Assembly: GCA_033807695.1 (NCBI GenBank)
Contig: CM066306.1
Location: 124,001 to 188,000, forward strand
Source of the DNA: Daedaleopsis sinensis
Taxonomy: Eukaryota > Basidiomycota > Agaricomycetes > Polyporales > Polyporaceae
DNA: 64,000 bases
Direction: 5' to 3'
The position numbers and the translations under genes were made by a program. This document shows positions 18,089 through 53,026 of this stretch, piece after piece; the first letter of the stretch is position 1, and each line of letters starts with the position of its first letter. The notes under the pieces were generated by a model that saw only the letters and a list, made by a program, of their open reading frames with translations, had not been told where the DNA came from and made no database searches.

Positions 18089-18674
18089 CACCGGGGGCAT
18101 CGATGTATGGGACAGCCTGTTACATTCTAGTTAAATAGTATTATTTGGCCAAATTTGACTACAATAGGTCACAATGTTATCTACTTGTCGCATACTTGTT
18201 GTATTTCACATAGAAAAAGCAAAGGAATCCCGGTGGGACAGCCCTGTTCCATGCCATTTCCATGTTCTCTTTGAATCCTTTGGAACGGGCTGTGGCACAT
18301 CTGTTCCATGGAATATGAGCCACCGATTGCTATACAGTGAGACAGGTTGTCCCACAGGTGAGCCACTTGTGGTGGAGCAGACAATGGGAGTAGAATGGCC
18401 AAACAATAGGCCACTCTGTTCCATGCTTGTTCTATATTGTGTCCACTTTGGATATTGAGGAATGGAACATAACAAACAACAGTTATTGGATTACAATGGA
18501 ACATAGTGTTGCATGGAAGAGTCATTTATTGTGGAAAATCGGCTGTTTACCTAGTTTAACATGGTGTTCTATTTGTACACTACTATAGGTCAGACTTGAG
18601 CATGTTCACAAGTCCAGAGCTTTAATGCCTTCCAAGCTACCAACTTGAAGGGACAACTAATGAGCCCAAACACA
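18089..18674 (+). repeat. Left terminal inverted repeat (586 bp)
   Basis: It pairs with 52438-53026 in reverse orientation. The copies differ by a few substitutions and one 3-nt indel near 18614. Within it the motif TGTTCCAT/ATGGAACA recurs about seven times between 18240 and 18505, a candidate transposase-binding site. It also holds a 114-codon antisense frame shared with the right copy; I regard that as by-product. Confidence 0.92.
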
Positions 18675-20635
18675 GAGTAGTTAGTGCTCATATGGTGCAT
18701 GAACAGATTAGTAGCACCCAGAGAGATTAGCACTTTAACACATCATTAGCACCTAAACACATTAGCACTCGAACAGATGAGCAGTACGAATTAGTAGCAC
18801 CTGGGAGATTAGCACTCGAACGCATTAGCGCTGGAACATATTAGCACTCGAACATCAGCACTCGAACATATTAGTGCCGGACGAACAGATTAGCAGTTGA
18901 GCACGGTAGCCATCCATTAGCACCAGAACATATTAGCACTCGAACATCAGCACTCGAACAGATGAGTAGTTGAGCGTGGTAGCACCTGAGCACATGAGCA
19001 CTTGAACAGATTAATGGTCGAGCACGGTAGCACTCGAACACATTAGCACCAGAACATATTAGTACTCGAACATCAGCACTCGAACACATTAGCACCGGAC
19101 GAACAGATTAGCAGTTGAGCATGGTAGCCATCAAACAAATTAGTGCATGAACAGATTAGCACCTGAACTCATTAGCACTCGAACAGATGAGTAGTTGAGC
19201 GTGGTAGCACCTGAGCACATGAGCACTTGAACAGATTAATGGTCGAGCACGGTAGCACTCGAACACATTAGCACCAGAACATATTAGTACTCGAACATCA
19301 GCACTCGAACACATTAGCACCGGACGAACAGATTAGCAGTCGAGCACGATAGCCATCGAACAAATTAGTGCATGAACAGATTAGCACCTGAACTCATTAG
19401 CACTCGAACAGATGAGTAGTTGAGCGTGGTAGCACCTGAGCACATGAGCACTTGAACAGATTAATGGTCGAGCATGGTAGCACTCGAACACATTAGCACC
19501 AGAACATATTAGTACTCGAACATCAGCACTCGAACACATTAGCACCGGACGAACAGATTAGCAGTCGAGCACGATAGCCATCGAACAAATTAGTGCATGA
19601 ACAGATTAGCACCTGGAACAGATTAATGGTCGAGCACGGTAGCACTCGAACACATTAGCACCAGAACATATTAGTACTCAAACATCAGCACTCGAACACA
19701 TTAGCGCCGGACGAACAGATTAGCAGTCGAGCACAATAGCCATCAAACAAATTAGTGCATGAACAGATTAGCACCTGAACTCATTAGCACTCGAACAGAT
19801 GAGTAGTTGAGCGTGGTAGCACCTGAGCACATGAGCACTTGAACAGATTAATGGTCGAGCACGGTAGCACTCGAACACATTAGCACCAGAACATATTAGT
19901 ACTCGAACATCAGCACTTGAACACATTAGCGCCGGACGAACAGATTAGCAGTCGAGCACGATAGCCATCGAACAAATTAGTGCATGAACAGATTAGCACC
20001 TGGAACAGATTAATGGTCGAGCACGGTAGCACTCGAACACATTAGCACCAGAACATATTAGCACTCGAACATCAGCACTCGAACACATTAGCGCTGGACG
20101 AACAGATTAGCAGTCAAGCATGGTAGCCATCGAACAAATTAGTGCATGAACAGATTAGCACCTGGAACAGATTAATGGTCGAGCACGGTAGCACTCAAAC
20201 ACATTAGCACCAGAACGTATTAGTACTCGAACATCAGCACTCGAACACATTAGCGCTGGACAAACAGATTAGCAGTCAAGCATGGTAGCCATCGAACAAA
20301 TTAGTGCATGAACAGATTAGCACCTGGAACAGATTAATGGTCGAGCACGGTAGCACTCGAACACATTAGCACCAGAACATATTAGTACTCGAACATCAGC
20401 ACTCGAACACATTAGCACCGGACGAACAGATTGTTGAGCGTGGTAGCACCTGAGCACATGAGCACTTGAACAGATTAATGGTCGAGCACGGTAGCACTCG
20501 AACACATTAGCACCAGAACGTATCAGTACTCGAACATCAGCACTCGAACACATTAGCGCCGGACGAACAGATTAGCAGTCGAGCACGATAGCCATCGAAC
20601 AAATTAGTGCATGAACAGATTAGCACCTGGAACAG
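18675..20635 (+). repeat. Left subterminal tandem-repeat array
   Basis: The array is built from about 18-22 bp units of the form GAACAnATTAGCAC(C/T)(C/T). Units are organised into higher-order repeats of about 225 bp (phrase AGCACCTGAGCACATGAGC at 18981, 19205 and 19431) and about 162 bp (phrase CCTGGAACAG at 19999, 20161 and 20323). The first few hundred bases next to the inverted repeat are more degenerate than the rest. It stops abruptly in the copia fragment at 20636 and resumes at 24201. Confidence 0.92.
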
Positions 20636-20907
20636 TTCACGTCGAGCTGGTGCACTTCGAAGTCGTGGCGTGCGGCGAAAGCGAGGGCCGTGCGGATGGA
20701 CGCGGTCTTTGCGACTGGCGCGTACGTGTCGAAGAAGCTGACACTGGGAATTTGGGAGAACCCGTGAGCGACGAGACGGGCTCGGTAGCAATAGACTGTC
20801 CCGGATGTGTCCTTCTTCGCATGAAACACCCAGCGACGAGTGACGATGTTCGCGTCCAAGGGTGGCCGTTTGAGCACCCATGTCTTGTGCGCCTCAAGAG
20901 CACGCAT
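20636..20907 (-). pseudogene. Copia reverse transcriptase, first part only
   Basis: Landmarks WVLKRPPLDANIVTRRWVFH, YRARLVAHGFSQ and DTYAPVAKTASIRTALA are the conserved copia RT N-terminus. Coding ends at HQLDVN, just before the expected AFLHG block, where the tandem array begins. The catalytic YxDD and everything after it are missing. Confidence 0.85.
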
Positions 20908-20992
20908 CTCCTCCTCTATCGCCTCCTTCCATCATGGCCATTCTGGACGGCACATCGCTTCAGCGAGCAATCGCGGGTCAATACCCTCCTCC

Positions 20993-21835
20993 TCAGCCAT
21001 TTTGGCCGCCATAGCCATCCCATCGATAGGCTCTGCAGGCGGTTCGACACCCTCCGAAGGAGCCTGGACCCCGCAAGGAAGCCCTACATCGGCACCTTTT
21101 CCGGACAGGATGTCGCGCACGCGTGCCGACGGGTTGCGTGCGCGAGTTGGGCGAGTAGCAGGAGGAGCAGGTGCGGACTTCGAATGGCGTATGGCCTCCG
21201 AGAGCCTTCGTCGAGGTGCGGTTTTTGAGCCAAACAGCGTGCATGACTGCCTCGCCCCACAGGTAGCGAGGATGTCCGGATGCGATGAGCATCGCACGGA
21301 CCTTCTCCATCAGCGTCCGGTTCAGACGTTCTGAAACACCTGCCTCCTCGTGCGTGTCGTGAACAGAGAGCTTCTGCACGATACCACGCTGTTCGAGGTG
21401 GGTCTTAAAATCATCCGAGAGGTACTCACCGCCACAATCTGTGTTAACAAACTTGACGCATGCGCCGAGGTGGTTCTCGAGCCATGCTTCGAACACCTTG
21501 AACGACTCAAACGATTCGCTTTTCTTGCGAATGAGGTAGAGCACTGTGAAACGTGATTTATCGTCGGTGAAGGTAATGTAATATCTGCGTCCACCGAGTG
21601 TCACGACTTGTGAAGGTCCCCACAGGTCCGAATGGACCTCCTCCCCAAGCTCCTCTGCCTGCGTCCCTTCACGCGTTGCAGGTACCGGCTTGCGTGTGGA
21701 CTTCGCGTGGACGCACGCGTCGCACGTCTGCTCCTCGTCGGACTTGACGAGTTCGATGCCTGAGATGAACTCCTTTGAGATGAGTTCTCGGATCGCACGG
21801 ACGGGGATGTGTCCGAAACGACGGTGGGCGTCCAT
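20993..21835 (-). pseudogene. Copia integrase fragment
   Basis: The frame opens with the HHCC zinc region (AHRRFGHIPVRAIREL, CDACVHAK) and continues into the DDE core: HSDLWGPSQV, FTDDKSRF, NTDCGGEY and SERLNRTLMEKVRAML. It is in the same frame as the gag-protease segment but separated from it by a TGA at 21845. It then drifts out of frame around 21180. Confidence 0.85.
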
Positions 21836-21844
21836 CTCCGTGAG

Positions 21845-23134
21845 TCACTCGACGGCAGGAGCAGCAGAGTGGGCACCTGCAGCAGGCTCGCGTTCGCGGG
21901 TCACCATATAGAGCCCGCGATCCTTTGGTATGTTGCCAACAGGTCTCCCGGCGGGGTCCGTGATGACACAGGTCCCACCAGAGAACGTAGCGGTGTAGCC
22001 AGCGTCGTCGATTCGACCTATAGAGATCAGGTTGAAGCCGAGGTCTGGAGTGTATAGGATGTCGGTGAGGCGCATATGCGAGACGTCGGCAGGGGCGTTG
22101 GGCACTGGGACGACCATCTCGCCGATTCCAAGAGCTTGGAACTGCTGCTGGTTAGCAGCGTTGAGCGACCGGGGAGCGGTTTCTGTGAACACAGCGAAGT
22201 CGTCGACAAATGGAGACATGTGGTGTGAGGCGCCATAGTCGTACAAATCGGCGACGTGAGCGGCGATAGGCGTGAGGGCGGCGGAGGCGTCCGGACGGGG
22301 ACCAGCGGTGTGGAACGATGCAGCTATGTTGTCCTGGACAGGGTCGTCGGTCGGACGAGTTGCGAGCCAGTTTGAGATGTTCTCCAAACACTTGGGCATT
22401 GGCAGCGGTGCAGGCGCGACAAGCTCTTCATCGGGGTTGGCGTCGTCGGACAAGACATCGGACATGCTCTGGAGGGACGGCATGGAGTCCTCCGAGCGTT
22501 CGGTGAGCTCCGTGTATGAAGAGTCTCCGGCAGACAACCAGGCGGTCTCGTCTGCGGCGTCGGATCCTTCGGAATCTGTGTCGGTTGCTGGGGCAAGAGG
22601 GGCAAGCATGGCGGACCACGTGCCGGTGTACTCCTCGATCCGGGCACTGGATGTGAGGTTCGCAGCTCCAGCAGCGGGTTTTGGGGGCTGGTTCGGACGC
22701 GCAGCGTCCTTGCCGTTGCCCTTGCCCTTGGCAGATGCCTTCGGGCTCGGGCACTGGTCCTCCTTGTGGCCCCTGCCATTGCAGTTCCAGCAGACCCCGA
22801 CAGGCTTCTGGGGTCCGCGGCCGCGGCCGTTCCAGCGCTGTTGCTGCTGCTGCTGGGGCGGCCGCCAATTGTTTTTCGGCTTTTCAGTTGAGAGGACGCT
22901 GGCGGCGATACCCGCATCCTTCCCCTTCCCCTTCATCGCCTTCTCGACCTCCCGGCGGTCGTACTCCTCGAGCACGAGTTCGATCATAAGATCGGGGTCG
23001 ATCGCCGGCTTGTCTGTGGGCAGAGGTGTGGTGGTGGCAGATCCAGAAGCGGTGGAGGCGAGAGCGGCGGCGCGCGCGGAGATTTTCATCTGTGCGGAGA
23101 GCTGCGAGATGAACGCTGAGAGTGAGGAGGGCAA
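21845..23134 (-). pseudogene. Copia gag C-terminus and protease
   Basis: A Gln-rich stretch precedes the CCHC zinc knuckle CWNCNGRGHKEDQC. The protease active site reads D-Y-G-A-S where an active aspartic protease needs D-S/T-G. The upstream gag portion (FTLAVKQKDVWGHFSGTSKC, 23189-23650) is in another frame. Confidence 0.8.
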
Positions 23135-24200
23135 GAACGAGATTATAACCGAGGTATTCGGAGTCGGTGATGTCGACGCCGTAGGTGATCAGATCCGAAG
23201 ACGGTCGAATTCGGAATGGAGATCGGCGGATGGTGTGGACTTCATGTTGAGGAAGTCACAACGTAGGTTCGACCGCTGAAGTAGCGACTTCTCGGAAAAT
23301 TCCGCGACGATCGCGGCCCACATAGCGGCCACCATGCCCTTGCGCTTGTGCTTAGCGTAGGTGACGGCAGCGAGCTTGAGCATGAGTAGATAGGCGGCGA
23401 GGGCCTCGGTCTTCTCCCAGGCGGCGATGGCCTTCGTCTCGGGGTCCTTCGGCGCAGCAGGATTGGCAGGAGTAGGGCACTTGGACGTACCACTGAAATG
23501 CCCCCAGACATCCTTTTGTTTCACGGCGAGGGTGAATGTTTGCTCGAAAATGATCCAATTCTTCCCTTGTGACTCGAGCTTGTCGACGGCGTGGATGAAG
23601 TTGGTGAGTGACGGAGTGCTAGTGGACGTGCCAGCGGCGGCGTTGGCTCAAATGTTCGGCGGCTAGTGGCGGAACCAAATAGGGAGGAAGCGGAGGGCGG
23701 ACGGATCGGAACGGGTGGAGTCTTGTAGGTTACGTTGCTAAAGTGCAGGGCTCATAACCTAACGCAGTGTGCAGTCGGTGAGCGTCAATCTGTAAGAGTA
23801 AGACCTGGTCCTCAGTATGCAGCACACGATGAGTGGGCAAGACTAATATGATTGTGTACCGGTAAGAGTAAGACGCGGTCTATACAAGGTACAGAGTCAG
23901 CTACTACCAAAGTAAGCGTAAGCGAAACATATACGTACCTCAGTATGCAGCACACGATGAGTGGGCAAGACTGAGGGGAAGAGAACGAGCGGGAGCGAGT
24001 ATATCAGGGGAAAAAACACAGAGCGCTAAGTTAATACCATAAAAGGTATCGTAGGCGCTCTCGTGCGCGGTAAGGATGAAACGCAGCGGGAGTCCATGTC
24101 AGCAGCGGGACGGCGGTGTAAGCAAGCAGGAGATGGGGTGATGGACGAATAGTATAGTAGGGAAGTGAGTCCGGGGCAGTACAGTACTCGGAGCAGGAAT

Positions 24201-24680
24201 AACTCGAACATCAGCACTCGAACACATTTGCGCCGGACGAACGGATTAGCAGTTGAGCACGGTAGCCATCAAACAAATTAGTGCATGAACAGATTAGCAC
24301 CTGAACTCATTAGCACTCGAACAGATGAGTAGTTGAGCGTGGTAGCACCTGAGCACATGAGCACTTGAACAGATTGATGGTCGAGCACAGTAGCACTCAA
24401 ACACATTAGCACCAGAACATATTAGCACTCGAACATCAGCACTCGAACACATTCGCGCCAGACGAACCGATTAGCAGTCGAGCACAGTAGCCATCGAACG
24501 AATTAGTGCATGAACAGATTAGCACTCAAACACATTAGCACCAGAACATATTAGCACTCGAACATCAGCACTCGAACACATTCGCGCCGGACGAACGGAT
24601 TAGCAGTTGAGCACGGTAGCCATCGAACAAATTAGTGCATGGACAGATTAGCACCTGAACTCATTAGCACTCGAACAAAT
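24201..24680 (+). repeat. Left subterminal array, inner remainder
   Basis: The same repeat family in the same orientation as 18675-20635 resumes directly after the copia fragment. The phrase ACTCGAACATCAGCACTCG recurs at 24200, 24427 and 24546. Confidence 0.9.
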
Positions 24681-25345
24681 GAGTACTGTACTAATCAATG
24701 CAAAGCGGTGCTGGGTGTGACCGGGCCAGAGGTCGTCAGAGGTCTGCATGTTTTACTGATTAGTACCGCAATCCGGCGTCTTCAGAGAGATCTGGCTCGC
24801 TACTCAGGCTGAAGAAAGCGTAGCACACTGTGCACTTAGGATGCATGTTCGCCGTATAGCTCTTCCTGAATGTTGAGTCGGGGTTGCTCCGGGTCGGGGC
24901 TACGTCAAGTTGGTGACGGTCCAAGTCCAAGACACTCACCGCCTGCGGGCCGGACAAACCCGCTCTCCCGTGGGAGCTGGGCGGGAGTCTCTCTAAGTAG
25001 TAGCTCCAGAGTCCGTACGCTCCTCTTCCTCCAGCCACTGACTTGCGACATCGATTCTACTCTAGAGCGCACCGAAACTTCTCGGAGAACCACCACCATC
25101 CTCCTCCACCCAACCTCCACCTCTACCGTCCGCCAGCGCCTACTACTACTAGCGCCGGTTCTCTTTGCTCGGCGCCAGCTCCCACCTCTGCCTCATGTCC
25201 CATTCCCTCGTGCAACAAGCATCCTTTGTCTACTCTATCGTCTCCATGCAGTGGCCAACTATGTGCACCATCACCATATACCTCTACACTCATCTACAAG
25301 CCGGTAAACCTGGTGTCACACTGGTTCTGGGTAGAAAGATCAGCT
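24681..25345. promoter_or_regulatory. Leader region ahead of the first element gene
   Basis: Non-repetitive and pyrimidine-rich near 25080-25200. Several short open frames exist, but the coding path that continues downstream begins at the ATG at 25346. The promoter of the coiled-coil gene is expected here. Confidence 0.35.
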
Positions 25346-27894
25346 ATGGCAGTCAGGCCCCCGCAAGATACCAGCTCGCGCATCCAGAGCCCCTTATCCC
25401 TCTGGGAATGGCCTGAGAACAATGAAAACGGTGATAAATACTGTAGCACAGGTGAATCACTCTGCCTAGCTGATATACGACCGGTGTATGTACTCATGCT
25501 ACGTCCAGACCTAGATTCCAGGTGCACTACATGCAATGCTGTCCCTCTCGTGCTCTCGCCTGGCGGGTCCAAGTGGTGCATCTGCACCTTGAAGACAGTG
25601 CACCGGGAAATGGTCGCGCTTCGATTGCAGCTCGACTCGTCTGCACGACAGCTCTCGGAGGCGGAAGCTCAGCTTGCCGAAAACGCTGCGGACTACCAGG
25701 TTCAGGATAGGGAGCTCCGTCGTTACGAGCAACACAAGGTGAGCTGGGCATGAGCAGATGACTTATAAATAGTCATCGTGGTCTGCATAGGTGAAGCATC
25801 AGAAGTCCATCGCCGAGCTTGAGGATAGACTGTCGACGCAACTCCAACTCAACGCTGAACTGACTCGCGCTCACGCCACGAAAATTCGTGAGCTTCAAAC
25901 AGCTTGTGCTGCACTTCAAGTGGAAGGGGTGCGTAAACCATACCGTTTGCTTGGGCTCTCGTGTCGAATCCTTGGGCAGCGAGACATCTATACGGAACTC
26001 AAGGACGTCGAAGGCGACCGCGATATGTGGAGGAGTAAATCCGAGTACATGGAGCAGGCCAACGCCGCTGTGACTCAACGACTAGAGGGTCAAGTTCGCT
26101 ACTTGGAGAGCGAAACCGTAAGTGGTCCTTAAGTCAAGCCTTGCATATCCTGAACGGCATATCCCAGGAGTCTCTCCAGTCCGAGGTCGATCTATATCGT
26201 GCACGCTGCACTGAAGTGTCGTCGCAACTCGACGGAGTCATCGTCACGTTGGAAGAGTCTCAAGCAAAGTTTAACAACCTGGAGTTCGAGACAGCAGAGA
26301 TCATAGAACGCCTTGAAGCGCAGAAACGAGAACAGGAATGTACGTATATACTCTACCTATATTCATACCTCCATGCTTACGTTGACCCTTATATAGTCGA
26401 TCTCATCGCACTCCGTATCGAGCTCAATCGAAAGGCAGACCCCGTGCCGAACGTGCTTCATCAGAGCCATTTCGACAACACGGACTCGATTAGCACGGCT
26501 GATGCTAGGCGAGATGATGTGGACGAATTTCGCGAAAGAGAGTCCGTCCCCCCGAAACCGGACGCTACAACGACCGATGCTGACGATGTGCTATTCTCCG
26601 TCGTGTTATCGCCCTCCATGACGACGCCTGCATGGTCTGCGATCCACAGTGCGGCCTATCGATCCGAGCATGCACTCTGCGCGATTGCAGACGATGAAGA
26701 CGTCCAACTAGCATCGCTAGTAGCTCGTTTGGCACTCCCCATCTTCATTGCTTCAATCTGGAGCCCGGATGCCTGCATCTGCATCCTATGCTATAATTCC
26801 ACCACTGCGGTCGTAAGTACATCTCAGTGGCTTTTCAGTCCGGAATCATCCTGTTGACGTGATCTACATGTAGCTCTTCACCATGCCGATCTCGGACGCT
26901 CCCGTCCCCGCCGCTGTTGCTAGCATTCATAGCCCCTCGCTATCGCTGGCCACCAGCACGGGTACAAGCATCGCTGCCAACGCTAGCGCCACTCTCGACT
27001 ATTCCGCGCTTGATGTGGGGACATACTTCGACGTGACCGCCTGCACGGAGCACGCTATCGAGCTAGCCCGACAATCACACGACGTTCTCTTCTCACCGGT
27101 CGAACAGGGATTCATGGATGTTGCTACTGTCCCTGATCTTGCATGGACGTTCATCTTGAGTTGCTGCAGAGGTTAGTGATCATGTCGTCATGCTCCGGGG
27201 TAGCACTAAATAATCACTCACAGAATATCCACCAAGTCTGCGTCCGTATCGTGCTCAAACGAGCCGCAAGAGTCCCTTTTCCCTCCTGTCTTCTGCAGAG
27301 CCGATTATGGAAGGTACCATATGCTATCCTTGCATCGAATCCTGCGCGTCCGTCACTGTGGGTAAGGCACTAGAGTCGCCCTACGACGTCTGCAGCGCCG
27401 CGCTGAACACCTCGGATGCAATCTCGGGCTATAGGCAGGCCCGGGTATACGACGCGTCCATTGCTACCTTCCAGCGATTATGCGGCGACAACCGACAGAG
27501 CCTCGATATATCTGACAAGCAACGCCTTCGCACCGACGCCTATCTTCTACAATCCAGCGACGTGCCCGAACCTGATGGGGACGTGACGGTGTATGTGGAC
27601 CAGGTCGATATCGCGTCCAATCGGCCTCTCCGCTACGTCGCGGCGATCGTCTTTGCTTTTCTCCTCTACACCCATGTCTCTTCCACCTTCCGCATCAATG
27701 TAGACTATCAGGAAGAACCTTGCATCTGCGACGGGCTCGTTCGGATGGTAGTTGACGGCTGGGCCTATCCTAGTCCATGGCGGGTGCTGAGGACGGAGTT
27801 GTTAAGATGGTTGCTTGGTTGCTCTCCTATCAATCAATACGCGATAGGGTGGTCTAGTGTAGCAGACTGTCATGGAGTCTCCTATTTCACGTAG
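25346..27894 (+). CDS. Element gene 1: coiled-coil protein, 741 aa
   Basis: Seven exons close in phase: 25346-25738, 25791-25928, 25980-26117, 26168-26339, 26397-26812, 26874-27171 and 27224-27894. Near residue 60 a CTTCN...WCIC pair could bind zinc. From about residue 75 to 270 the chain is long coiled coil (LRLQLDSSARQLSEAEAQLA, IAELEDRLSTQLQLNAEL, EESQAKFNNLEFETAEIIER). A low-complexity, acidic middle follows, then a C-terminal region with CYPCIESC and a possible membrane helix (YVAAIVFAFLLYTHV). No catalytic motif is seen. Coiled coil plus Cys pairs suggests a self-associating scaffold or DNA/protein-binding factor. It is the first gene after the left array and is co-directional with all others. 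I do not recognise the family. Confidence 0.72.
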
Positions 27895-28114: not shown

Positions 28115-29022
28115 ATGCCTCAACCCTGGTCGCCGCGCATCCCTCTCTTCACTTCCACCTTCTCCGCACTAGTGGCTCCCACCTCCTGCCGTTGGTATGA
28201 ATTACAGCGCTCAACGGAACGAGTTGAGTATATCACGGCTAGCTCAGTGTCTCTCGTACTAGATACTTACCTTTGACGTGTGCTCACAGTACTGAAGTGG
28301 TTCACTTCTCGGCAATCCGTCAAGTATGGTATGCTGAGACGACTGTCAAGGACGATGAGCCGCAGTTTCTCCCATGCCAAATTTTGCTCGTCGAGCTCCT
28401 ACCCGATCGATGTGAGTGAATACACGTTACCATATATTCCTCACCTTATTCTCATCCCCTGGGGCTGTTTGTCAGTCGTGTTTGTGATCAGGTGTGACAG
28501 CTTCAGCGACGCTACTCGTGTCCAGGCAGCGATTACGACCGACTGGGGTATCCAACACGCTCGCGTGAGTATAATTCTTCCTACCCCCTGCCCCGCCCCT
28601 CTGTCACAGTCTATGCTTACCAATGCCATGTTCTGCAGAGATCCGAGCTTCTATCCCAGCCTCATGAAATATCTTGGACCCGTTCGAAGATGCTCGGTAT
28701 CCAAGATTCGGAGGAGACAATCATGTCCCTCCGCTTCTATGAGGATTCGGCATACTTCGACTTCAACCGTCGTATCTACCACGCGTTCTATCGTGCGACC
28801 AAGCTCGCTGAAGACATGGTCAACCACATCGATAGGATCTCCCTGCCGGCGAATTTTGTCCGTTATGTTCGCTCCTATCTTGGCGAGGCGTACTACGAGC
28901 ATTTGGACGTCGACGATGAGGAAGAGTCAGGCACATCACAGTCTGTCGATGGAGATGTATACGCTGACAGGAGTGAAGAAGACCTCACTCGGTATGGCGA
29001 CTCGGAGCCGGAGGTGTCGTAA
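28115..29022 (+). CDS. Element gene 2: unknown protein, 224 aa
   Basis: Four exons join in phase: 28115-28194, 28290-28411, 28476-28564 and 28639-29022. The C-terminal exon encodes helix-rich sequence (FYEDSAYFDFNRRIYHAFYR, KLAEDMVNHIDRI) and ends in an acidic, Ser-rich tail (DVDDEEESGTSQSVDGD). No signal peptide, membrane helix or catalytic motif. The start ATG is the first in phase with the second exon, but an alternative open exon (LPELFDSEHALLLYHH) overlaps it from 28036, so the 5' end is less sure than the rest. Function unknown. Confidence 0.55.
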
Positions 29023-29810
29023 TTGCTTGTAGTATACAACTCTGTCAAGTTGTTTGGCGTGTCTCGAGCCGTGTGGACTACAAGGCTGTTGCTCAGGCTC
29101 CCAGGCTTCCCCCTCGTCCTTGCGCGCGATGTATCGTATCGTATAGGCTATCGTAAATGTAAATGTGTTGCTATATACTCAATCTAGCGGTCCGGCGCGC
29201 CGCCCTGGCCGCCCTGATGCCTCATGTACCGCCTCGCCAGCGCGCGCCTTGCCCTTGCCACGGCCGTCTGACCAGCGCCTGATGCTCACTCCTGGTTGAT
29301 TTTGGTCGACTTGAACGACCTCCTCCTCCTCGTCATCCAGTGATATCAATCTTGCGCTCGTCTGTCCTCGGTCTCAAGTGTTTGCCCACTCGCCTTTGCG
29401 CATATGTCCCATCACGCTTGGTCCCCAGGCTTAGGCCTCCTCAATAAGCTAGGCATCCGGACTCCCTCCATCGTCGTCGAGCTCACTCGGTCGTTCTGCG
29501 GATACCTTGTCGTCAGCAACATCTCACTGAAAAGGTCCAGCTGGGACCGGAAGGATCGTAGTGTAGCTCTGGAAGCTCAGTTTGCCGCCATCAGGTGAGG
29601 ATCCTTTGTTCCCGTATCTCGAACGCCTCGTTCATATCGTCTTTGTCTTTAGAGATGCTTCAAGTATCTGCGCGCCCCTCCAAGGCACGCATCCCCACTG
29701 ATTCACCACCCATCATCGCCCGACTTCTCTGTCCTCCCGCCACACACAGGACGTCACCCGAAATGCATTTTCTTCTCCAACTCGTTACTGTTGTCGTGGT
29801 CACCCGCGCC
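29023..29810. other. Spacer between element genes 2 and 3
   Basis: Open frames at 29404-29598 and 29595-29810 exist; the second is continuous with gene 3 and could be its 5' extension. No independent gene is supported. Confidence 0.35.
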
Positions 29811-31094
29811 ATGTACTCTCTGGGCCTTTTGGGCAACAATCCGCCGCAAGCCGTCGACGAAGATCAAGATGGTCTCCAGCGCCATCGACGTCGTCAAACC
29901 ATCAGGATCGGTCGCTTCACTCCGGACCGCGAACTAGGCGAAGAATCCGGCGACGATGACGAACCCGGCGGCGATGGCGAACCACTCGAAGCTGTGGCCA
30001 TACAAGAGGGTTATGCAGAAATCTTCGAACATGACGGCCAGGGAGATGAGAACGGCGAAGACAATGGGGAGCAGGGCGAGGAGCGTAGGGAGCGTGACGA
30101 GGAGGACAATGGCAGCGCTGACGATGCAAGGTATGCCATAGACTGTTCAGAGTCTAGCATGATATGCTGAGAACGACACATCAACGTTAGCATGTCAGCT
30201 CCTCCCACTGGTTCCTCTCGTTACCAGACGCGATCTTCTCAGGCGCGGGTCGCCTCTCCTCCAAGCACACCAACGAGACGTTCAGGGAATGTCCCCGCTA
30301 CTGGTCGAGCTATAGGTCTCGTGACCCCCCCTTCGTCCCTGCGAGCCTCAAGACGCAGTGGTCCTCCGTCGAATTCCGTCCACTGGGCAGTGCCCGTGGC
30401 CTCCTCGTCTTCGCCGCAATCCGTCTCTTCATCCTCCCCCGCTTCCGGCACATCTTCGTCGACCGGTCCCGCGATGCATCTGTGCGTCGCGTCTTCTTCG
30501 CGTGAGCCATTGCCTTCTTCCGCTTCGCGTGGACCCCCGTATTCGGCTTCGGCTTCGCGTGGACCGTCGTCTTTTCCCGCTTCGGCTTCTCGCGGGCCAT
30601 CTTCTTCACCCGCTCCATCTTCCCGTGCATTGTCGCCCTCGTCCGTATCCTCAGCAAGGAGGAGCAACGCCCCGTTGTCACCGGCTATCATGGCCGCCTA
30701 CACTGCTCAAGTTGGCGTACGTCGAGCATTCCATGTGTAGACTGAATGCTACTAACTACGATAACAGGGCGAAGGTGTCTACAGACGTTACTTCAGGTGG
30801 TTCCGTGGCTTATATGACACCACGCTCGACGATGGTGAGCTTGCTGGAACCGCTTGGTTCCAGGCCACCTCCCAGGCCCCCATAGTCGCTCCGCCGGACT
30901 TCTCGGCCTGCCCGCGCGTTAGACTTGGTGATATTTTCCACAATCGCGCAGGCGACGTCGATCAACTCTGGGTTAGAATTTTGGACATTGACGGCGCGCC
31001 ATGCTGGCAGCCTACTGCCATCGGAAAGAAACGGGCCGATGGCAGGAAGCTCATCATCACCAAACATCAGCGTCTGCCGTCCTGGATCTTGTAG
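29811..31094 (+). CDS. Element gene 3: Ser/Pro-rich protein with C-terminal W-rich module, 390 aa
   Basis: Three exons join in phase: 29811-30130, 30191-30716 and 30768-31094. The first exon is strongly acidic (GEESGDDDEPGGDGEPLEAV). The second is Ser/Pro-rich and carries an internal tandem repeat of SASRGPSS type (four copies near 30515-30600). The third encodes a compact region with spaced aromatics: VYRRYFRWFRGLYDTTLDD, QLWVRILDIDGAPCW, KRLPSWIL-like ending. The tail resembles, in length and pattern, the end of element gene 7. The frame is open upstream to 29595, so the start may be earlier (for instance 29763). Likely an intrinsically disordered arm plus one binding domain. Function unknown. 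Confidence 0.6.
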
Positions 31095-31613
31095 TGGGAG
31101 CCGTTCATGGCCAACTCACTCGCTTCTCTTCATCCAACCACCCTCTTGACTCGTCGCTCGCTAGCGTCGCCACTTTCCTCTCCCTCTTCACTGCCATCTA
31201 TGATTCTTTGTCTACGCCCCCAGTTTCTACCGTCGTTTCCAAGGTTCTATGCATATTACAACGTCCTTCGTAATTAGTTCATGTAGACTCCGACACACTC
31301 CCAGGACCTATATGCTCTCTAATATCATTCATCCCAACATTATAATCATACATGATTTCGTGTCCGCGCTCAGCGCTCAGGCCTAGGGCTCAGGCCTGAG
31401 GCCTCTGGCCTCGAAGTTACCAGATGCGATCGGGGAATGTGGGTACCACGCCACTCGCACGTGGTAAGTAGTTGTGCGGTGATCCCGAAGATGAAGCTGA
31501 GTACTGAGTACTGAAGCTTGAAGCTTGAACTTAACTTCAAGTTGAAAGCTGCTGTCGTCGCCATCTGTATCCTCTACCTACATTCCTACTGCTTGACTCA
31601 TACGTTGCAACGA
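31095..31613. other. Spacer between element genes 3 and 4
   Basis: Contains short simple duplications, such as AGGCCTGAGGCCTCTGGCC near 31395 and GAAGCTTGAAGCTTGAACTT near 31513. No coding path. Confidence 0.4.
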
Positions 31614-33525: not shown

Positions 33526-34007
33526 GCGATGTCCACAGGTACATAGACCTCGTTGGCGGCGATCAGGTCGCTGAGAAGGTGACGCATTATCTAGCCCTTA
33601 CCACCGGTGAATAGATATCGTAGTCGTGAGGCATGATGCAGGAGGAGGAAGGTGGCGATCACGTGTCGGGCAGGAGACGAACTATAGACGCCCGTTTATA
33701 TTCTCATACTAAGCTGCTGCTCCTAGCGAGTATATACGTTCGAATTCACGGCTCACTGTTCAACAACGTTCAACGTTCAACGTTCAACGTCATGCCTGGG
33801 CATGCTTGACCTTACAAGCTCATCCTTTCCCCGGAGTCAAATCATGCGCCTTATCACAAAGACTGCCTCGTGTGGAGGAGTCTTCAACACGCAGCCTGAG
33901 GTATCTCAGAACAAAGGAGAGGAGTTGGTATATAGGTGCGTGGTCCGCAAATTTGACTTCCCCCTCCGCACGTACTTCGCGAAACCCGTCCCTTTGCATA
34001 CTCTACT
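33526..34007. promoter_or_regulatory. Spacer and promoter of element gene 5
   Basis: Holds a TATATA-like sequence at 33731 and a CAACGTT short tandem repeat at 33764-33790, roughly 220 bp before the gene 5 start. No coding path of its own. Confidence 0.4.
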
Positions 34008-42262: not shown

Positions 42263-44288
42263 TTGGCAATGTGCTTTTCTCTTGCTCAAAGGTTTTCTGC
42301 AAGCTCTACCGACATGGAGCCACTCCTCTCGTTCCTTAGCCTTCCTCATACCACCACACTGCTGCCTCATAAATATGACTTCTCCACTGCTGCCTCGACG
42401 TGGCACTCTCTTCCTCGCCGACGACATAATATCAAGCTCTCCACAATCGAGCACCGACTGGAAAGTGAGTAGCTTTAGTATCGGCGGCGACGCACCGAGC
42501 CGCCATTCTTAGCAATGCTCGTCTAGTCCATCTATCCGAATCGAAGGAGATACTCTCACGTGCTCAGGATGACTTCGAGGTATGTCCGTTCAACTGCCAG
42601 TGGAAGCCAGCTGCCAATGCTTGTACAGTCTGGGGACCGTTGGATTCGGTCCCGCCTCTACGGTGGACGACGAGCTGGATCGCTGCGAATGTGAATCGCT
42701 ATCCGATGACGACGAATACTCGAGGGCAGGTTCTGCTGGGGACATAGGTGGGGGTGATACAAGTGAGTCAATGATACTCACTACATGCCGACTACTCCTT
42801 AACTCCAAGTCTTCGCAGGTGCGCAGCCGGACCCTACGCTCGAAAGCAGTCATGTGGATCCTTTCTTGAATGTCGTTGCGTCGACGTCGTCCGGTGAGCC
42901 TACTGGTGAGCATAGAGCATCCGTATATCGCCGTTAGCGAGGTTTGCTTACCTCTGTGGTTTCCAGCGGTCGGTGGCTCCGACAACAGCGCTTCACAGGC
43001 TCCCACTACCTCGGGCAACAAGGATCCATTGCGAGGCCTTCCGTTCGTATCATTCGCTGGCAACTCTGCGACTACTCGGCTACATCTGCCTAGTTCGTCG
43101 ACCGCGAACGGCAGCCACAACATGACGGTCCCGCATGATCAGGAGCTTGACCGTGTCCGTGCTGTTTCGAACGCATCTGACCCGCCCTACACATCGTCTG
43201 CATCAGTCGTACCTTCGACGACGGTCGATACACCCTCCCGTAACTCTGGTTCCGCGCCGGCGTCCTCTAGTCACGAAGCATCATCTCCGATGGCAGCCAA
43301 GAATGCCCTAGCGTCCGCTACGCAGAGCAGCTCCTCCCGCGATCTCGACATCAGAAACTGTGAAGACTCCCCGATTGCTTCATCCTCGACTGGTACAGCA
43401 TCATCCCTGGCTGCGCCTATGGAGGTCGATGACGCCACCGACCCGGGTAGGGTAGTTGGTACTCGACCAGGGGACTCATTATTTTGCCCGGCAACCCCGG
43501 CCGGTCTGACGCAGATGGAGGACGACGATATCATTGCCTCTATGTCAGTTGACTCAGAGGCCCGCGTCCCAGAGCTTCACGGTCCATCATCTCCTCACGA
43601 AGCACTATCCGAGCCTTTCGCCTCATCGTCGATGGACCTTCACGTCTCAACTCCTCCGATCGTCGCATCTTGTTCCAGCATAAACGCCCCTGTCGTTGCT
43701 TCGAACTTAGCCGGGACAGTCACGACGACCTCTGCGACGTCTCCAGCTGATCTCGCGGTGACGTCTTTGGGAGAATCATCTGCCCCAGTGCCTTCGTCGC
43801 GCGTTCGAATGCTACAGGATGCGCACTCATCTCGACGGTGCAGTGATGCTACTGGGAGGCGCGGTGCTCGCTTGCAAGGCCCGGGTGCAGTACCTACAAC
43901 CCATGACACGGAAGATGCGCTCCAAGGGGAGACACAGTGGAATACTTGCCGTTATCAGAAGGATATGCGGCAAGGGGAAGGCGAGACTGTCTGGTATCGA
44001 ACGTGCGGACCATTCATGTTGGACCAGCCCCCCACATCGCTATCGGCCGGCGTGGATGACCTCTACATCCATCACGACTGTACCGCGCGTACCAAGATGT
44101 GGGTCATGAACCGTCATCATGTTTGGGTGGTGGTGCGGCAGGGCGACTGGCGACCGTCTGACCGGGACCGACGGCTGCATCTCTGCAAGAATGGAGATCC
44201 TAGCTGGCTCACTAGAGCATCTTACAGCGTTACTCGCAGCCGCATCAAGAGGACAACCGCTCAACATTCGCGAGCCCGCAAGTCCTAG
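42263..44288 (+). CDS. Element gene 7: Ser/Thr-rich disordered protein with C-terminal module
   Basis: From 42582 onward exons join in phase through introns ending near 42818 and 42967, to a stop at 44288. Landmarks are LGTVGFGPASTVDDELDRCE, then SAQPDPTLESSHVDPF, then AVGGSDNSASQAPTTSG. A 300-residue Ser/Thr/Ala/Pro-rich stretch follows with no domain. The C-terminal 110 residues change character: GETVWYRTCGPFMLDQPP, VDDLYIHHDCTARTKMWVMN, HHVWVVVRQGDW, LCKNGDPSWLTRASY. This W/H/C-rich module resembles the end of element gene 3. The 5' exons (LSTIEHRLE near 42450; LVHLSESKEILSRAQDDFE near 42540) are coiled-coil-like but do not connect in phase, so the start is unresolved or carries a 1-nt shift. 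Function unknown. Confidence 0.55.
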
Positions 44289-44591: not shown

Positions 44592-47500
44592 ATGACCGCG
44601 GAAGTCATTGAACCAGGTATGATCATCGAGCCTATCGTATGCGTGAGAAGGATCTAGGTGTATTAACGGCTAGTGGCGCCTATTCAGATCACCCTCAGGC
44701 TTCAGAGGCTCCTACCACAACAGCTACAGGCTCCTCATCCACTGTCGGTTCTGTCCATCCTTCCGCACTCGCATCCGGTACCGCATCAGTGAGTAAAGGC
44801 GGCGCCAGTCGAGGTGAGCACATAAGTCCAGCCCTGAAGGCCTAATCTCTACGTTAACGTCCCTTTCGCCCACTAGCCGGCAAGAGAAGACAGAATGATG
44901 ACGATCCTGACGAAGCTTATGCCGGAGTTTTGGACGACGATAGAAGTGCAGGGAGGTGCATCAAGCCGATGCCAGGTGCGGATGACGTAGCTATTCTATG
45001 TTTTTCTAATCCTTACATTCTTCCGGCAGCGAGACAACGAGCGCAAGACGGCCAAGTCTCAAGCTCGAGCCACGGCGACACAGTTTCTTCTAGGTCACCC
45101 TCGGTGGGAGTGGTGGAAGAACTGGAAGAACTCCGAGTAGCGCCAGGCAAGAAAAGAAGACTCAAAGGGCCCAGGCATCGCGACGTCATCTCCTCCTTCG
45201 TCGCCGAAATTCAATCTTACTTCCTATCTCAGAACCCGAACCCAGATACATGCGCTGAGCGCGTGCGAGAGTTCCTGGAGGTGCACGGAGTTCTAATAGA
45301 CCTTGACAACGATTCAGGAGACGAGTCTCCCGACGAGATGGACGATGGCATGGAGGATATCCAGGACGACCATGAGGTCGACTTACATCTATTGCAAGAC
45401 GTCGAACCTTCAGAAGTGGAAGCTAGCGATTCTGAGATGGCTGATGTAGCTGTGCAACCGACCGCCGCTGACTTCGATGAACGTGGACGCGGGGATCATA
45501 GGACCTTCTCTTCTCACCACACCCCCCAGTCCACGACCGGGGAACTGAATACATGCTCTCTGTGCGTCAGTACCGCTTTGCCGCCGTTTATACGCTAACG
45601 AACGTGATGTCTCAGCACCCCCGCCACATCCCCTGATAGTCATCTTCAGTGGGACGAACAGGTCGCGGAACATAGCGAGAATTTAGTCGAGCCTCAGTGC
45701 AAAGCCGCGATTTCCGCGTCCATCGCCAGCCCACCCTTTACTACCTTGACCGGTCCTTCACCACCGATCAACCCTCCATCTTCCCGTATCACAACTCTTT
45801 CATTCACAGAAGATACACCCATCGAGACCACGCCTGCATTCTCTCCAAATGTCCCCATCCATGACGAGAATGAGAGCCACGACGCCGCTCCGAACGACCA
45901 CAGCCCCGCTACTATGGACCCTTCCCGCTTATATGCCAGGAGTCACGACTCGCCTTCAACAGGCGGCACCAACATACTTTCAGACGACACCATATGTACC
46001 GGTGATCCCGTTTCGTCGGCCCACCCCGCCTCTCCTCATGACATCTCTTTGAACGACCGCATCTCTACCGGTGATCCCGTCTCAACCGACACCGCCTGTA
46101 CCGGCGATATTCCCTCGGACATTTTCATCTCTACTGGCGACTCCATGTCCTCGGACGAACGTATCGCTACCGACGACTCCGTCTGCTTGGACGAACGCAT
46201 CTCCATAGGAGACCTAGCCTCAATGGAGGAGCACATTTCTACCGGTGATCGCGCCTCCTCTGACGAACGTCTCCCTGACCCTGCGCCTTCCGTGAACCAT
46301 CCCATGTACGTTTCGTATTTGCGCGATTCTCTCGAGGACAACAATATGGGAGGGTTAGACTGCAACCCAGAAGTGGACCACGGTGCAGGCAATAATGTTT
46401 CGGATGTCGATGTCAGGATGAGCGAATCCTCATCATCCCCCCCACGCATTGCAGAGGCCCAGCATGTTCTTGAATCCCTCGATTTCTGTCACCCGCACGC
46501 GACGTCCGGCCCCTTTCCACGGGCACTTCCTCAACGATCCCCATCTCGGACTCCAGCTACCCCGCTCGCACGCCCTCCACCTGCTCTACAATCCGTTCCG
46601 GGATACTCGCTCGTAGGAGAGCCAGTGGTATCCGGTGGCCATGCAATGCATGACAGCTCTTCGCTAGGCCTACAACTCGCAAACGACTCTACAGCACCTC
46701 CTCAACTGTCAACGGCCGTACCCTCCTTCACCCCTCGGGCGCTGGAGAAGCGCGCAGCTGACCGGCCTTTACCCCCTGGTGCTCGCGTCATGCCGATTCC
46801 CCCACAAGGGCCGCTATTGTTCGTAGCTACTCAAACTACACCGAAAGCAGGGAGGACCGCCTCTGTGCATCCGCACTCTGCTTCGTATCGCCCGCAGCCA
46901 CCTGTCATCGAGCGCTGGACTCCTCGGATGCAGACTCGTACGCTAGGCTCAACTCCTCCTGCAGCAGCAGCTATGACCCCGGGAGTTCTTACGCAGGCGA
47001 CACCCTCTGAGCTATCATCATCCGACGCACACACTCCGCGCGTGACGAGTTCTGCACAGCCCTCCAGCCCCTCCATCGTCCAATCTCCATCTCGTCCTTT
47101 ATCAGCTGCCGGTGGACGCTGGACCCCTCGAATTCAACGTGTTGCTTGTCTTCCGCTTGTGCCTTCTAACACAATTTTGAGGGAACCCATGTCCAGGCAG
47201 GTCCGGCCTGGCTCGACGCCTTACACACATGCAACGCCGTCAGTGATTGCTGTTCAAACGCCCACGACAAGTTCTCAATCTGCGATAGTGCGCGCAACGG
47301 AGCCTGCGCTGGCGACGGGACCTGTCCCCGAGTCGGGACCTGTGTTCGCGACGGGATCCGCTGTAGGCAATCGATATCTCTCAACGAGGTCGGCATACTC
47401 GCCCTATGTCGCGCCGCACGTGACGCCAACTCCGCGGTCAGAACCAGCATCGTCGCTCGTCACGCATGTAAATCCGATAGGACGTCCAACCTCTGCGTCG

Positions 47501-49432
47501 GCAGTCACGATGAGACCGATATCAGCCACAAGTGGGACTGCGCCCGCGCCCTGTGCTCCTGCATGCACCATATCGTCTGGGTCAACGCTCCCTGCACATT
47601 CTACGACGACCACGCCGTCACAAACAGCATCGTCGCAGCACATCGTAGAAACACGCACGCCAGATGGTTCTCCACTTGCGACCGGAAGCGCGAGGTCATA
47701 CGCCACACATATCGGAACACTTTCGTCTCCTCCCTCAGGTGCCGACGCGTATATTACGCAGTCCAGCCCAGCTTCGAGTCGACAAGAACCAGCCTCCCGA
47801 ATTTACGAGCGTTCACATTCACCGATGGACGACACGCCAGACGACATGCATGTAGACTTGTCGACCTTCTCTTCTGAACCGATACAGCGCCCTGCTTCCG
47901 CGCCAATATCACCCTCCATCAGCAACCATATCGACGATCGTTCCGACCCTTGGCTGCAGCCAACATCCATGTCCCCAACAAACCGATCGGAAGCAGGTCA
48001 TATACAGGGGCGACGCAGTAGTCCAATGAGGGGGATGCGTGATCCATTCGGCGGCGATGATGTGGCTATTGATGCGGTACGTCGATAAATTACCGTGTTC
48101 ATCAATATACAACACTCGTACTCATATTACACTTAGGATGCTCCGGCTACTCGCGGTGAAATAGGGCAGCTGGTCGGCGCTGTCTTCGATATGACCGCGG
48201 AGGTACGGAATATGACTCAACACGTCATCCAAGCAGTCACTGCGCATATCCCAGCGGCACGGCCTCGTCGCCGCGATACCCAAGATGATGGATCGGACGG
48301 CGATGATGAATCCGACGATGCGAACACGGGAAGTCGTGTGCAGAGGAAAAACGGGCTGACGAAGCATCTACCTCCGGACCAGATCCAGCTCGCGGTGCGT
48401 TTCCCTGCGTTGTCTTGTAACCTGTTGATACTCACTTATCTGTGCAGAAAGACGTCAAGAGGCATTTTTTGGCCCTGATGCGTCGCGATGGATCGGACGC
48501 GCCATTCCACCCAGACACGGTTGCCACCCCCCAAGCCGTTCGTGGTTTTCGGCGGGAGGAAGGCGAGTGCTGCGACGCTGACGGTTTCTGCGTGGACCTG
48601 GAATCTACCCCTGGGACCGTCTACAATAGATCGTCGAGGCAGGTTTTCATCGACAACTTCCTGTTCGTGGACCTATACAAATGCAAGGACCGCGCCAAGA
48701 TTGGGGCAATGTTTGATGCTCACTTCAGAACGGTCAAGAAGCACTACCTCGCGCAGAAGGAGGATGCTGCGGCCGCCGGTCGCGGTTTAGTCATCGATAG
48801 GACCCCTGAGAAGATCGCGAAGGCGCGCCAACAACGCAAATACAATGTGCGTCGCCCATGCACATGTTCGACCTCCGATACTCACGACTTTGCTCAGACT
48901 TTCCAGCGTCGTCTCCGGACAGCATTGCGGTACCCCGAGACGCGTCAGCACGTACCCCTCCTCAAAAGACTGGGCGTCGACGGTATGAGCTCTGACGAGG
49001 AAGATTTTAACACACCAGGTTTCAGGCTATACAGGGTATTGCGTAAGCCGTGGAGGGCTCCGCCAGTAACTCTCTTTCTCCGGATTTTCGACGGCCTTCA
49101 TCGCCGATGGCGAAGTCACGATGGGCAAGGCGAGCTACGCGGGGCTCAGCCGCACCTACGTTTCCTCACGGACGAGGAGACCACTCAACGTCGAGCTGTT
49201 CCCGGCTTACCAAAGAACACGTACAATTCAACCTGGATCGATGTTCTTCCAGCGACGTCGTTGGCAGACCTCAACGTGCAGCCGACCGAATATGACTTCG
49301 CGCATACCGCCAACATCGAACTGTAAGTAACGGCTCTTCTTCCTCCCATACGAACAGACTGAGAATGAGTATTTTAGCATCGCAGCACCATGGATTCAAA
49401 GTGTTATGGACGACGGCCGCATACTGGTGTAG
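44592..49432 (+). CDS. Element gene 8: 1459-aa protein, candidate second transposition protein
   Basis: Nine exons close in phase: 44592-44616, 44688-44813, 44877-44975, 45030-45561, 45616-48076, 48137-48394, 48448-48846, 48898-49322 and 49378-49432. The N-terminal part has a basic patch (GKKRRLKGPRHRD) followed by FVAEIQSYFLSQNPNPD and acidic stretches (DDGMEDIQDDHEVD). Near residues 300-410 a degenerate 13-residue repeat of ISTGDxxSxDERI type occurs about eight times. A long Ser/Thr/Pro-rich region follows. The C-terminal 350 residues are globular: KNGLTKHLPPDQIQLA, RHFLALMRRDG, FVDLYKCKDRAKIGAMFDAH, VPLLKRLGVDGMSSDEED, RKPWRAPPVTLFLRIFDGLH, VPGLPKNTYNSTWIDVLP. This C-terminal domain resembles one I associate with Tnp2 loci in Agaricomycetes, by memory only. 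A TNPA-like end-binding role is an inference from position and size. Confidence 0.72.
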
Positions 49433-50440: not shown

Positions 50441-50585
50441 TGTGTATAGACCACATGTCCGTTTGCACCCTCCGTGCTTGGCGGGCGTTGACACCAATGT
50501 CTGCGGCAGCTGGTGATCTGAACGGTATACCTCTCACCCACATTGGGGGATGGAGACTGGTGGGAGGGGCCTCGATGTATTCAGG
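50441..50585. other. Non-repetitive interruption within the right array
   Basis: About 145 bp without array units. It is GC-richer, with phrases such as GGCGGGCGTTGACACC. It marks the switch in repeat orientation and may be a breakpoint scar or a small insertion. Confidence 0.5.
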
Positions 50586-50639
50586 CACTAGTCTGTTCAA
50601 GTGCTAAAGTGTTTTGGTAAATTGGTACATGAACACATT

Positions 50640-52437
50640 ATCACTTGAACAGATGAGTAGTTGAGCGTGGTAGCACCTGAGCACATGAGCACTTGAACAG
50701 ATTAATGGTCGAGCACGGTAGCACTCGAACACATTAGCACCAGAACATATTAGTACTCGAACATCAGCACTCGAACACATTAGCGCCGGACGAACAGATT
50801 AGCAGTCGAGCACGATAGCCATCGAACAAATTAGTGCATGAACAGATTAGCACCTGGAACAGATTAATGGTCGAGCACGGTAGCACTCGAACACATTAGC
50901 ACCAGAACATATTAGCACTCGAACATCAGCACTCGAACACATTAGCGCTGGACGAACAGATTAGCAGTCAAGCATGGTAGCCATCGAACAAATTAGTGCA
51001 TGAACAGATTAGCACCTGGAACAGATTAATGGTCGAGCACGGTAGCACTCAAACACATTAGCACCAGAACGTATTAGTACTCGAACATCAGCACTCGAAC
51101 ACATTAGCGCTGGACGAACAGATTAGCAGTCAAGCATGGTAGCCATCGAACAAATTAGTGCATGAACAGATTAGCACCTGGAACAGATTAATGGTCGAGC
51201 ACGGTAGCACTCGAACACATTAGCACCAGAACATATTAGTACTCGAACATCAGCACTCGAACACATTAGCGCCGGACGAACAGATTGTTGAGCGTGGTAG
51301 CACCTGAGCACATGAGCACTTGAACAGATTAATGGTCGAGCACGGTAGCACTCGAACACATTAGCACCAGAACATATTAGTACTCGAACATCAGCACTCG
51401 AACACATTAGCGCCGGACGAACAGATTAGCAGTCGAGCACGATAGCCATCGAACAAATTAGTGCATGAACAGATTAGCACCTGAACTCATTAGCACTCAA
51501 ACAGATGAGTAGATGAGCGTGGTAGCACCTGAGCACATGAGCACTTGAACAGATTAATGGTCGAGCACGGTAGCACTCGAACACATTAGCACCAGAACAT
51601 ATTAGTACTCGAACATCAGCACTCGAACACATTAGCGCCGGACGAACAGATTAGCAGTCGAGCACGATAGCCATCGAACAAATTAGTGCATGAACAGATT
51701 AGCACCTGAACTCATTAGCACTCAAACAGATGAGTAGATGAGCGTGGTAGCACCTGAGCACATGAGCACTTGAACAGATTAATGGTCGAGCACGGTAGCA
51801 CTCGAACACATTAGCACCAGAACATATTAGTACTCGAACATCAGCACTCGAACACATTAGCGCCGGACGAACAGATTAGCAGTCGAGCACGATAGCCATC
51901 GAACAAATTAGTGCATGAACAGATTAGCACCTGGAACAGATTAATGGTCGACCACGGTAGCACTCGAACACATTAGCACCAGAACATATTAGTACTCGAA
52001 CATCAGCACTCGAACACATTAGCGCCGGACGAACAGATTGTTGAGCGTGGTAGCACCTGAGCACATGAGCACTTGAACAGATTAATGGTCGAGCACGGTA
52101 GCACTCGAACACATTAGCACCAGAACATATTAGTACTCGAACATCAGCACTCGAACACATTAGCGCCGGACGAACAGATTAGCAGTCGAGCACGATAGCC
52201 ATCGAACAAATTAGTGCATGAACAGATTAGCACCTGGAACAGATTAATGGTCGAGCACGGTAGCACTCGAACACATTAGCACCAGAACATATTAGCACTC
52301 GAACATCAGCACTCGAACACATTAGCACCGGACGAACAGATTAGCAGTCGAGCACAGTAGCCATTGAACAAATTAGTGCATACTAGTTAGCACTTGAACA
52401 GATTAGCAGTTGAGCATGGTGCGCTAAAACAGAAACA
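50640..52437 (+). repeat. Right subterminal array, outer homogeneous part
   Basis: Higher-order units of about 162 bp (CCTGGAACAG at 50853, 51015 and 51177) and about 225 bp, nearly identical to those of the left array near 19800-20635 and in the same plus-strand orientation. For example 51171-51450 closely copies 20317-20600. Confidence 0.9.
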
Positions 52438-53026
52438 TGTGTTTGGGCTCATTAGTTGTCCCTTCAAGTTGATGGCTTGGAAGGTATTAAAGCTCCGATG
52501 GACTTGTGAACATGCTCAAGTCTGACCTATAGTAGTGTACAAATAGAACACCATGTTAAACTAGGTAAACAGCCGATTTTCCACAATAAATGACTCTTCC
52601 ATGCAACACTATGTTCCATCGTAATCCAATAACTGTTGTTTGTTATGTTCCATTCCTCAATATCCAAAGTGGACACAATATAGAACAAGCATGGAACAGA
52701 GTGGCCTATTGTTTGGCCATTCTACTCCCATTGTCTGCTCCACCACAAGTGGCTCACCTGTGGGACAACCTGTCTCACTGTATAGCAATCGGTGGCTCAT
52801 ATTCCATGGAACAGATGTGCCACAGCCCGTTCCAAAGGATTCAAAGAGAACATGGAAATGGCATGGAACAGGGCTGTCCCACTGGGATTCCTTCGCTTTT
52901 TCTATGTGAAATACAACAAGTATGCGACAAGTAGATAACATTGTGACCTATTGTAGTCAAATTTGGCCAAATAATACTATTTAACTAGAATGTAACAGGC
53001 TGTCCCATACATCGATGCCCCCGGTG
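52438..53026 (-). repeat. Right terminal inverted repeat (589 bp)
   Basis: The reverse complement matches 18089-18674. It ends CATCGATGCCCCCGGTG at 53026. It carries the same recurring ATGGAACA motifs and the same 114-codon frame with two residue differences. Confidence 0.92.

Follow-up and report, generated by a model that had tools for sequence, protein, structure and literature searches.

CACTA elements are usually regarded as carrying one or two genes. Can a unit of almost 35 kb, with CACTA-like ends and a long series of genes between them, be a single transposon? This question is raised by a stretch of 64,000 nucleotides from the basidiomycete Daedaleopsis sinensis (GenBank assembly GCA_033807695.1, contig CM066306.1, positions 124,001 to 188,000, forward strand), referred to here as the window. 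A preliminary description, made from the sequence alone, had read window positions 18089-53026 as one complete giant CACTA-like element, and the ends, their TGG flanks, the Tnp2 transposase and paired relatives elsewhere in the assembly support that description. We conclude that this 34,938-bp unit is very probably a complete, likely autonomous giant EnSpm/CACTA transposon and one of a multi-lineage family in Daedaleopsis sinensis, on the basis of its long inverted ends, 3-bp duplications, CMC-type transposase, subterminal arrays and conserved interior gene set.

Results

Ends of the window element

The 17-bp tip of the element occurred exactly twice in the window, at 18089 (+ strand) and 53010 (- strand), and the exact 17-mer occurred only twice across the 51.6-Mb assembly; allowing one mismatch added two more places. 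The left terminal inverted repeat (18089-18674, + strand, 586 bp, tip CACCGGGGGCATCGATG) and the right one (52438-53026, - strand, 589 bp) were 98.47% identical over 589 columns, with zero differences in the outermost 132 bases. The letters TGG lie directly outside both tips, at 18086-18088 and 53027-53029. When the ends and the repeat arrays next to them were excluded, the longest inverted exact match elsewhere in the window was 15 bases. Thus the perfect 17-bp termini, the near-identical inverted repeats and the matching TGG flanks of the preliminary description were all found as described.

Transposase and ubiquitin-like part

A Tnp2 transposase, as in EnSpm/CACTA elements, had also been placed inside the element, and the open reading frame at 37599-39236 indeed matched the tnp2 family PF02992 at 63.2 bits (cut-off 28.6). 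The transposase gene (36583-41148, + strand) combines this Tnp2 core with an SAP-like segment and a C-terminal part containing the motif FWSER. Its Lentinus tigrinus counterpart is one 924-aa protein with the motifs D219, D295, C314/C317 and E659, and the window exons carry matching D, D, C(2)C and E motifs. At the level of sequence motifs, the window transposase therefore has the EnSpm/CACTA arrangement of D, D and E with C(2)C between the second D and the E, and the Glu of FWSER (codon 40227-40229) is likely the catalytic Glu. An AlphaFold model of the Lentinus homologue has a predicted RAG1-like fold. PF18759 had no match in the window transposase exon, where PF02992 alone matched at E 0.01, and some distant transposase homologues carry both families. 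For the transposase and for gene L (described below), the homologues with a named source came from Lentinus, Ganoderma, Lenzites and Fomitopsis, all of which we take to be Polyporales.

Upstream of the transposase lie ubiquitin-like exons (G, 36083-36405, + strand) with a conserved C-terminal Gly-Gly. With a candidate splice donor 16 nt past the Gly-Gly, these exons probably form the 5' end of the transposase gene.

Relatives in the assembly

A genome search with the first 600 bp for paired copies had been proposed in the preliminary description. The left-end query matched the two ends of the window element and one place on contig C4 at 73% identity, which proved to be the right end of another element (C4:779706-810881, 31,176 bp). 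The ends of the C4 element are 97.8% identical over 650 bp and flanked by TAG on both sides; compared with the ends of the window element they are 73-75% identical over 297-347 bp. In a wider search, the tip CACNGGGGGCAT occurred at 117 places in the assembly (100 of them listed) versus 8 for the reversed control. Counting the C4 element, four further complete elements of 31.2, 63.9, 64.4 and 80.4 kb share the tip CACCGGGGGCAT. The three larger ones each bracket a tnp2 gene: C3:2665949-2730307 (64,359 bp, ends 84% identical, TGA/TGA), C3:4444796-4525192 (80,397 bp, ends 100% identical over 507 bp, TCA/TCA) and C7:1049456-1113352 (63,897 bp, ends 99.86% identical over 713 bp, ACA/ACA). A one-base-changed tip lies inside the C7 element at C7:1050294, and the outer tip was chosen with the support of the end comparison.

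All five elements start their terminal inverted repeats with CAC, and a perfect 3-bp target-site duplication flanked each of the five bracketing pairs, the window's included, as is characteristic of EnSpm/CACTA. From the trinucleotides of the window, the chance of five perfect duplications out of five is about 1e-9. The assembly contains 33 tnp2 loci above 200 bits, eight of them in the two nearest clades (at least 55% identity) and 25 more distant (37-46% identity); paired ends bracket five of the eight. The search thus returned related pairs.

An interruption lies within the right end of the 80-kb element, and nested insertions may account for part of the length of the three large elements. 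Two other near-clade loci, C3:152858 and C4:1193179, have surroundings that are 99.955% identical over 4,476 bp, a similarity that suggests recent copying of a relative.

The tip search also returned other arrangements. At least 13 short paired CACNGGGGGCAT ends of 265-1323 bp were found (for example C3:1025193-1025465, C4:752646-752917 and C8:2670008-2670282), possibly non-autonomous derivatives. Adjacent tip pairs about 16-17 kb apart at C7:2145612 and C9:1072707 bracket none of the eight near-clade loci. A solo right end at C7:2161500-2162451 (L059) is 97-99.5% identical to the ends of the C4 element, and gene A matches at 2158.6-2159.5 kb nearby point to a partial second element of the C4 type. 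Four same-strand tips at C4:2029914, 2042316, 2054691 and 2067122 (- strand) are about 12.4 kb apart, resembling a tandem duplication.

Could two shorter elements, or a duplicated inverted segment, mimic one 35-kb unit? Unpaired ends and short end pairs carrying this tip do occur in the genome. Against this, the window holds no more than the two tips, TGG stands on both flanks, and the C4 element has the same overall arrangement, bounded by TAG. In addition, two related sites run through the joined flanks without interruption, an argument tempered because these sites are 74-80% identical over about 80-100 bases and chance matches are conceivable. We give this alternative a negligible probability and read the unit as one element, as the preliminary description had.

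Conservation and distribution of the interior genes

A gene finder trained on the blocks conserved with the C4 element, with no transcripts used, gave the gene models A-L, multi-exon genes with short introns that cover about 24 kb of the + strand; a few shorter + strand models were left unnamed. The C4 element is collinear with the window element, and each named gene has a counterpart block in it. In a six-frame comparison the blocks ran in the same order over 25.5-49.3 kb with 38-83% amino-acid identity in the model frames. The ratio pN/pS between the two elements ranged from 0.16 (transposase core) to 0.55 (K) at dS of about 0.8-2.4, and the +1-frame control gave 1.03-1.89 in the six of eight genes whose equal-length blocks permitted it (D and J were not computable).

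The homologues of these genes cluster at transposase loci. After exon matches were merged by hand into places, the window's own included, the assembly held 5 places for F, 25 for L and 9 for B, and 5/5, 23/25 and 9/9 of them, respectively, lay within 50 kb of the 33 tnp2 loci (expected 0.3, 1.6 and 0.6). A composite query with D, G, J and A returned 69 match rows, and within 50 kb of tnp2 loci lay 27 of the 30 D rows, all 9 G rows, 13 of the 14 J rows and all 16 A rows. Each of the three larger elements contained homologues of A, D, F, G, J and L. Many of the distant tnp2 loci have an L- or D-like gene no more than about 50 kb away, and the L-like genes are often divergently oriented.

If a short CACTA element had captured a host gene cluster in the manner of a Starship cargo carrier, the inner genes would be host genes. 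Such capture would fit the finding that Pfam searches of the exons and models gave no transposon-related match for most inner genes, as well as the different gene order of the 35/31-kb and 64/80-kb elements and the absence of B from the larger ones by search. On the other hand, genes captured from the host would be expected to have relatives beyond the elements, and with few exceptions F, B, L, D, G, J and A have their homologues next to tnp2 loci; moreover, the gene set has been retained in lineages at dS of about 0.8-2.4. Capture of host cargo is therefore very unlikely in our judgement, and the interior, judged by these comparisons, looks like the element's own gene set.

A Teratorn-like hybrid of virus and transposon, in which the accessory genes would be viral and the element could exit the cell, might carry a large and conserved set of genes, most of them orphans, that includes a WD40 protein and a ubiquitin-like part. 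The exons and models searched against Pfam, which do not cover every frame, matched no capsid, polymerase or packaging family, and we regard such a hybrid as highly improbable. A giant EnSpm/CACTA transposon with its own genes is the reading we retain.

Gene models and subterminal arrays

From left to right on the + strand, gene A (25496-27894, pN/pS 0.43) has an N-terminal part that appears coiled-coil-like by eye and by weak sub-cut-off matches. It is followed by gene B (28115-29022), a conserved model of 235 aa without assigned function, and by gene C (29763-30505), a short model with a single conserved 49-codon block. Gene D (30690-31273, 153 aa), which is found next to many tnp2 loci, has a C-terminus that is hydrophobic by eye. 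Gene E (31614-33614, pN/pS 0.27) contains WD40 repeats (PF00400, 41.9 bits, cut-off 27) followed by segments that look hydrophobic. Gene F (34008-35284, 337 aa), also conserved with the C4 element, precedes G and the transposase gene. Downstream are gene J (42582-44288, 529 aa), conserved in its C-terminal part, gene K (44639-47010, pN/pS 0.55), which is of low complexity and the least conserved, and gene L (47825-49326, 462 aa, pN/pS 0.21), for which three of four database homologues contain PF26792.

Each end of the window element has an array of about 2 kb in which a 16-bp unit (ATTAGCACTCGAACA plus one base) is repeated in one orientation. The left array, with its TGCTAA core on the - strand, occupies 18745-20661 and continues past a copia piece at 24202-24690; the right array (50619-52431, - strand) has the same orientation. 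On the prevailing strand the arrays hold 85 and 139 copies of TGCTAA, against 1 on the other strand, and the interior is at chance level. The C4 element has similar arrays of a different unit, so that the subterminal repeats typical of EnSpm/CACTA are present in both elements examined. The copia piece (20993-23647, - strand) is a truncated Ty1/copia retrotransposon with gag, Pol_BBD, gag_pre-integrase and rve matches; a reverse transcriptase was not found in its three scanned open reading frames. Because of the analogy with TNPA and the Spm subterminal repeats (PMC2613891), we infer that the arrays are predicted binding sites for an element-encoded protein.

Insertion site and neighbourhood

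When the two flanks of the window element were joined with one TGG and used as a query, they matched their own flanks and two uninterrupted related stretches across the junction, C4:1548898-1548982 at 80% and C1:4089501-4089607 at 74%. The C1 stretch runs through GGGTGGGT with a single TGG and the C4 stretch is one G shorter; both have an extra 7-9-base insertion 8-10 bases right of the junction. Since these related stretches span the junction uninterrupted, the insertion target seems to be a dispersed repeat. An allelic empty site was not found with this query in the one assembly searched.

The earlier proposal that the copy in the window moved recently is thus not sustained: neither a second near-identical copy (by the end query) nor an allelic empty site was found, and repair can also keep inverted ends alike. 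Might the element be an ancient immobile remnant, kept by the host as a domesticated locus? The lack of a near-identical second copy by ends and the copia insertion in the array are consistent with this. Its own ends are 98.5% identical and its exons long and open, however, and among the relatives ends are 99.86-100% identical and one pair of loci 99.955% identical. We consider a remnant very unlikely and keep to the transposon as the explanation.

The element inserted about 0.8 kb away from a gene model that encodes a Pex24p (peroxin) domain, and it broke no modelled gene except an 85-codon frame predicted across the junction. Further left, window positions 6355-13377 (- strand) contain a Helitron-like open reading frame of 2340 aa with DUF6570, Helitron_like_N and PIF1 helicase.

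Discussion

Several observations weigh against a family of complete giant transposons with a common gene set. The five pairs were picked for bracketing a tnp2 gene, and both ends were not found at three of the eight near-clade loci: C9:128446 has a right end only, and C3:152858 and C4:1193179 had no end of the searched patterns among the tip places listed. The end query found no near-identical second copy of the window element in the assembly, and a truncated copia sits in its left array. The gene models are stop-free by construction and vary with the intron penalty, and a - strand run also gave 10 shorter models, 3 of them over the copia piece. The AlphaFold model has a mean pLDDT of 63.6. 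The searches, which did not include E and K, detected no B in the three larger elements, and three D-like rows lie more than 400 kb from every one of the 33 tnp2 loci. Finally, gene order differs among the elements: it is A-D-G-tnp2-J-L-F in both 64-kb elements, the 80-kb element has D inverted and A between L and F, and the window element has F upstream of the transposase.

The element showed every diagnostic EnSpm/CACTA feature that was examined, and size and the conserved gene set are what set it apart within this superfamily. Our literature searches found neither a fungal CACTA of 31-80 kb nor a ubiquitin-like CACTA transposase. Compared with the fungal EnSpm/CACTA branch, as treated in the sections of PMC12730594 drawn on here, the present elements are 31-80 kb long with inverted ends of about 500-700 bp, have at least six non-transposase families common to the five elements or most of them, and place a ubiquitin-like exon ahead of the transposase. 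None of the models submitted to Pfam matched TET/JBP. Giant algal EnSpm elements are likewise enlarged by extra genes: the sources give 16-20 kb with 4-5 open reading frames in the red alga Chondrus (PMC6431247), and up to 15.2 kb for EnSpm and 30.3 kb for KDZ in the brown alga Ectocarpus (PMC12477816). Unlike these, the present elements are fungal and about 2-5 times longer, and their extra genes were compared across diverged elements, with pN/pS below 1. Soybean Tgmt* (20.5 kb, 13-bp ends, one large gene) shares the 3-bp duplication and the tnp2 transposase, its subterminal repeats being 17 bp, and a comparable gene set is not among its features in the portions of PMC2613891 that describe it. 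Plavaka elements, also of basidiomycetes and with a transposase clade related to EnSpm, end in TGT..ACA or CATCA..TGATG according to the passages in PMC12730594 and PMC8290104. The window element ends in CACCG..CGGTG and its transposase exon lacks a PF18759 match, and we do not assign it to Plavaka.

The preliminary description had compared the element with Starships in scale, with unrelated machinery. The captain of a Starship is a tyrosine recombinase with DUF3435 near one end. The exons and models compared with Pfam, again fewer than all frames, gave no match to such a captain. As far as the source sections describe them, Starships are giant fungal mobile elements that combine a tyrosine recombinase with accessory genes, whereas the present elements combine a DDE transposase with a conserved core. 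The comparison in scale stands; the likeness is one of size only, because the interior genes look conserved in the elements rather than variable host cargo.

We propose that the DDE transposase would pair the two ends at their CACCGGGGGCAT tips, excise the element and reinsert it with a 3-bp stagger. An element DNA-binding protein, either the product of gene L or the SAP-like part of the transposase, would coat the subterminal arrays, comparable to TNPA in maize Spm. The ubiquitin-like part may be cleaved at its Gly-Gly or may modulate the stability of the transposase, and the remaining genes (WD40, coiled-coil-like and others) may serve the element, for instance in spread or in escape from silencing. 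Both present-day movement and a contribution of the extra genes to it are what we infer. More tentatively, and with somewhat less than even confidence, a basidiomycete lineage may have joined a RAG-like CACTA transposase and its ubiquitin-like part with at least six accessory families into an integrated machine for mobility or anti-silencing that moves up to 80 kb as units, and this lineage might be the equivalent of Starships in mushrooms.

Within a single fungal genome, diverged elements of 31-80 kb thus share extra genes that are under selection where testable, which makes the cause of giant eukaryotic DNA transposons directly testable. Some of the orphan genes in mushroom genome annotations may belong to transposons.

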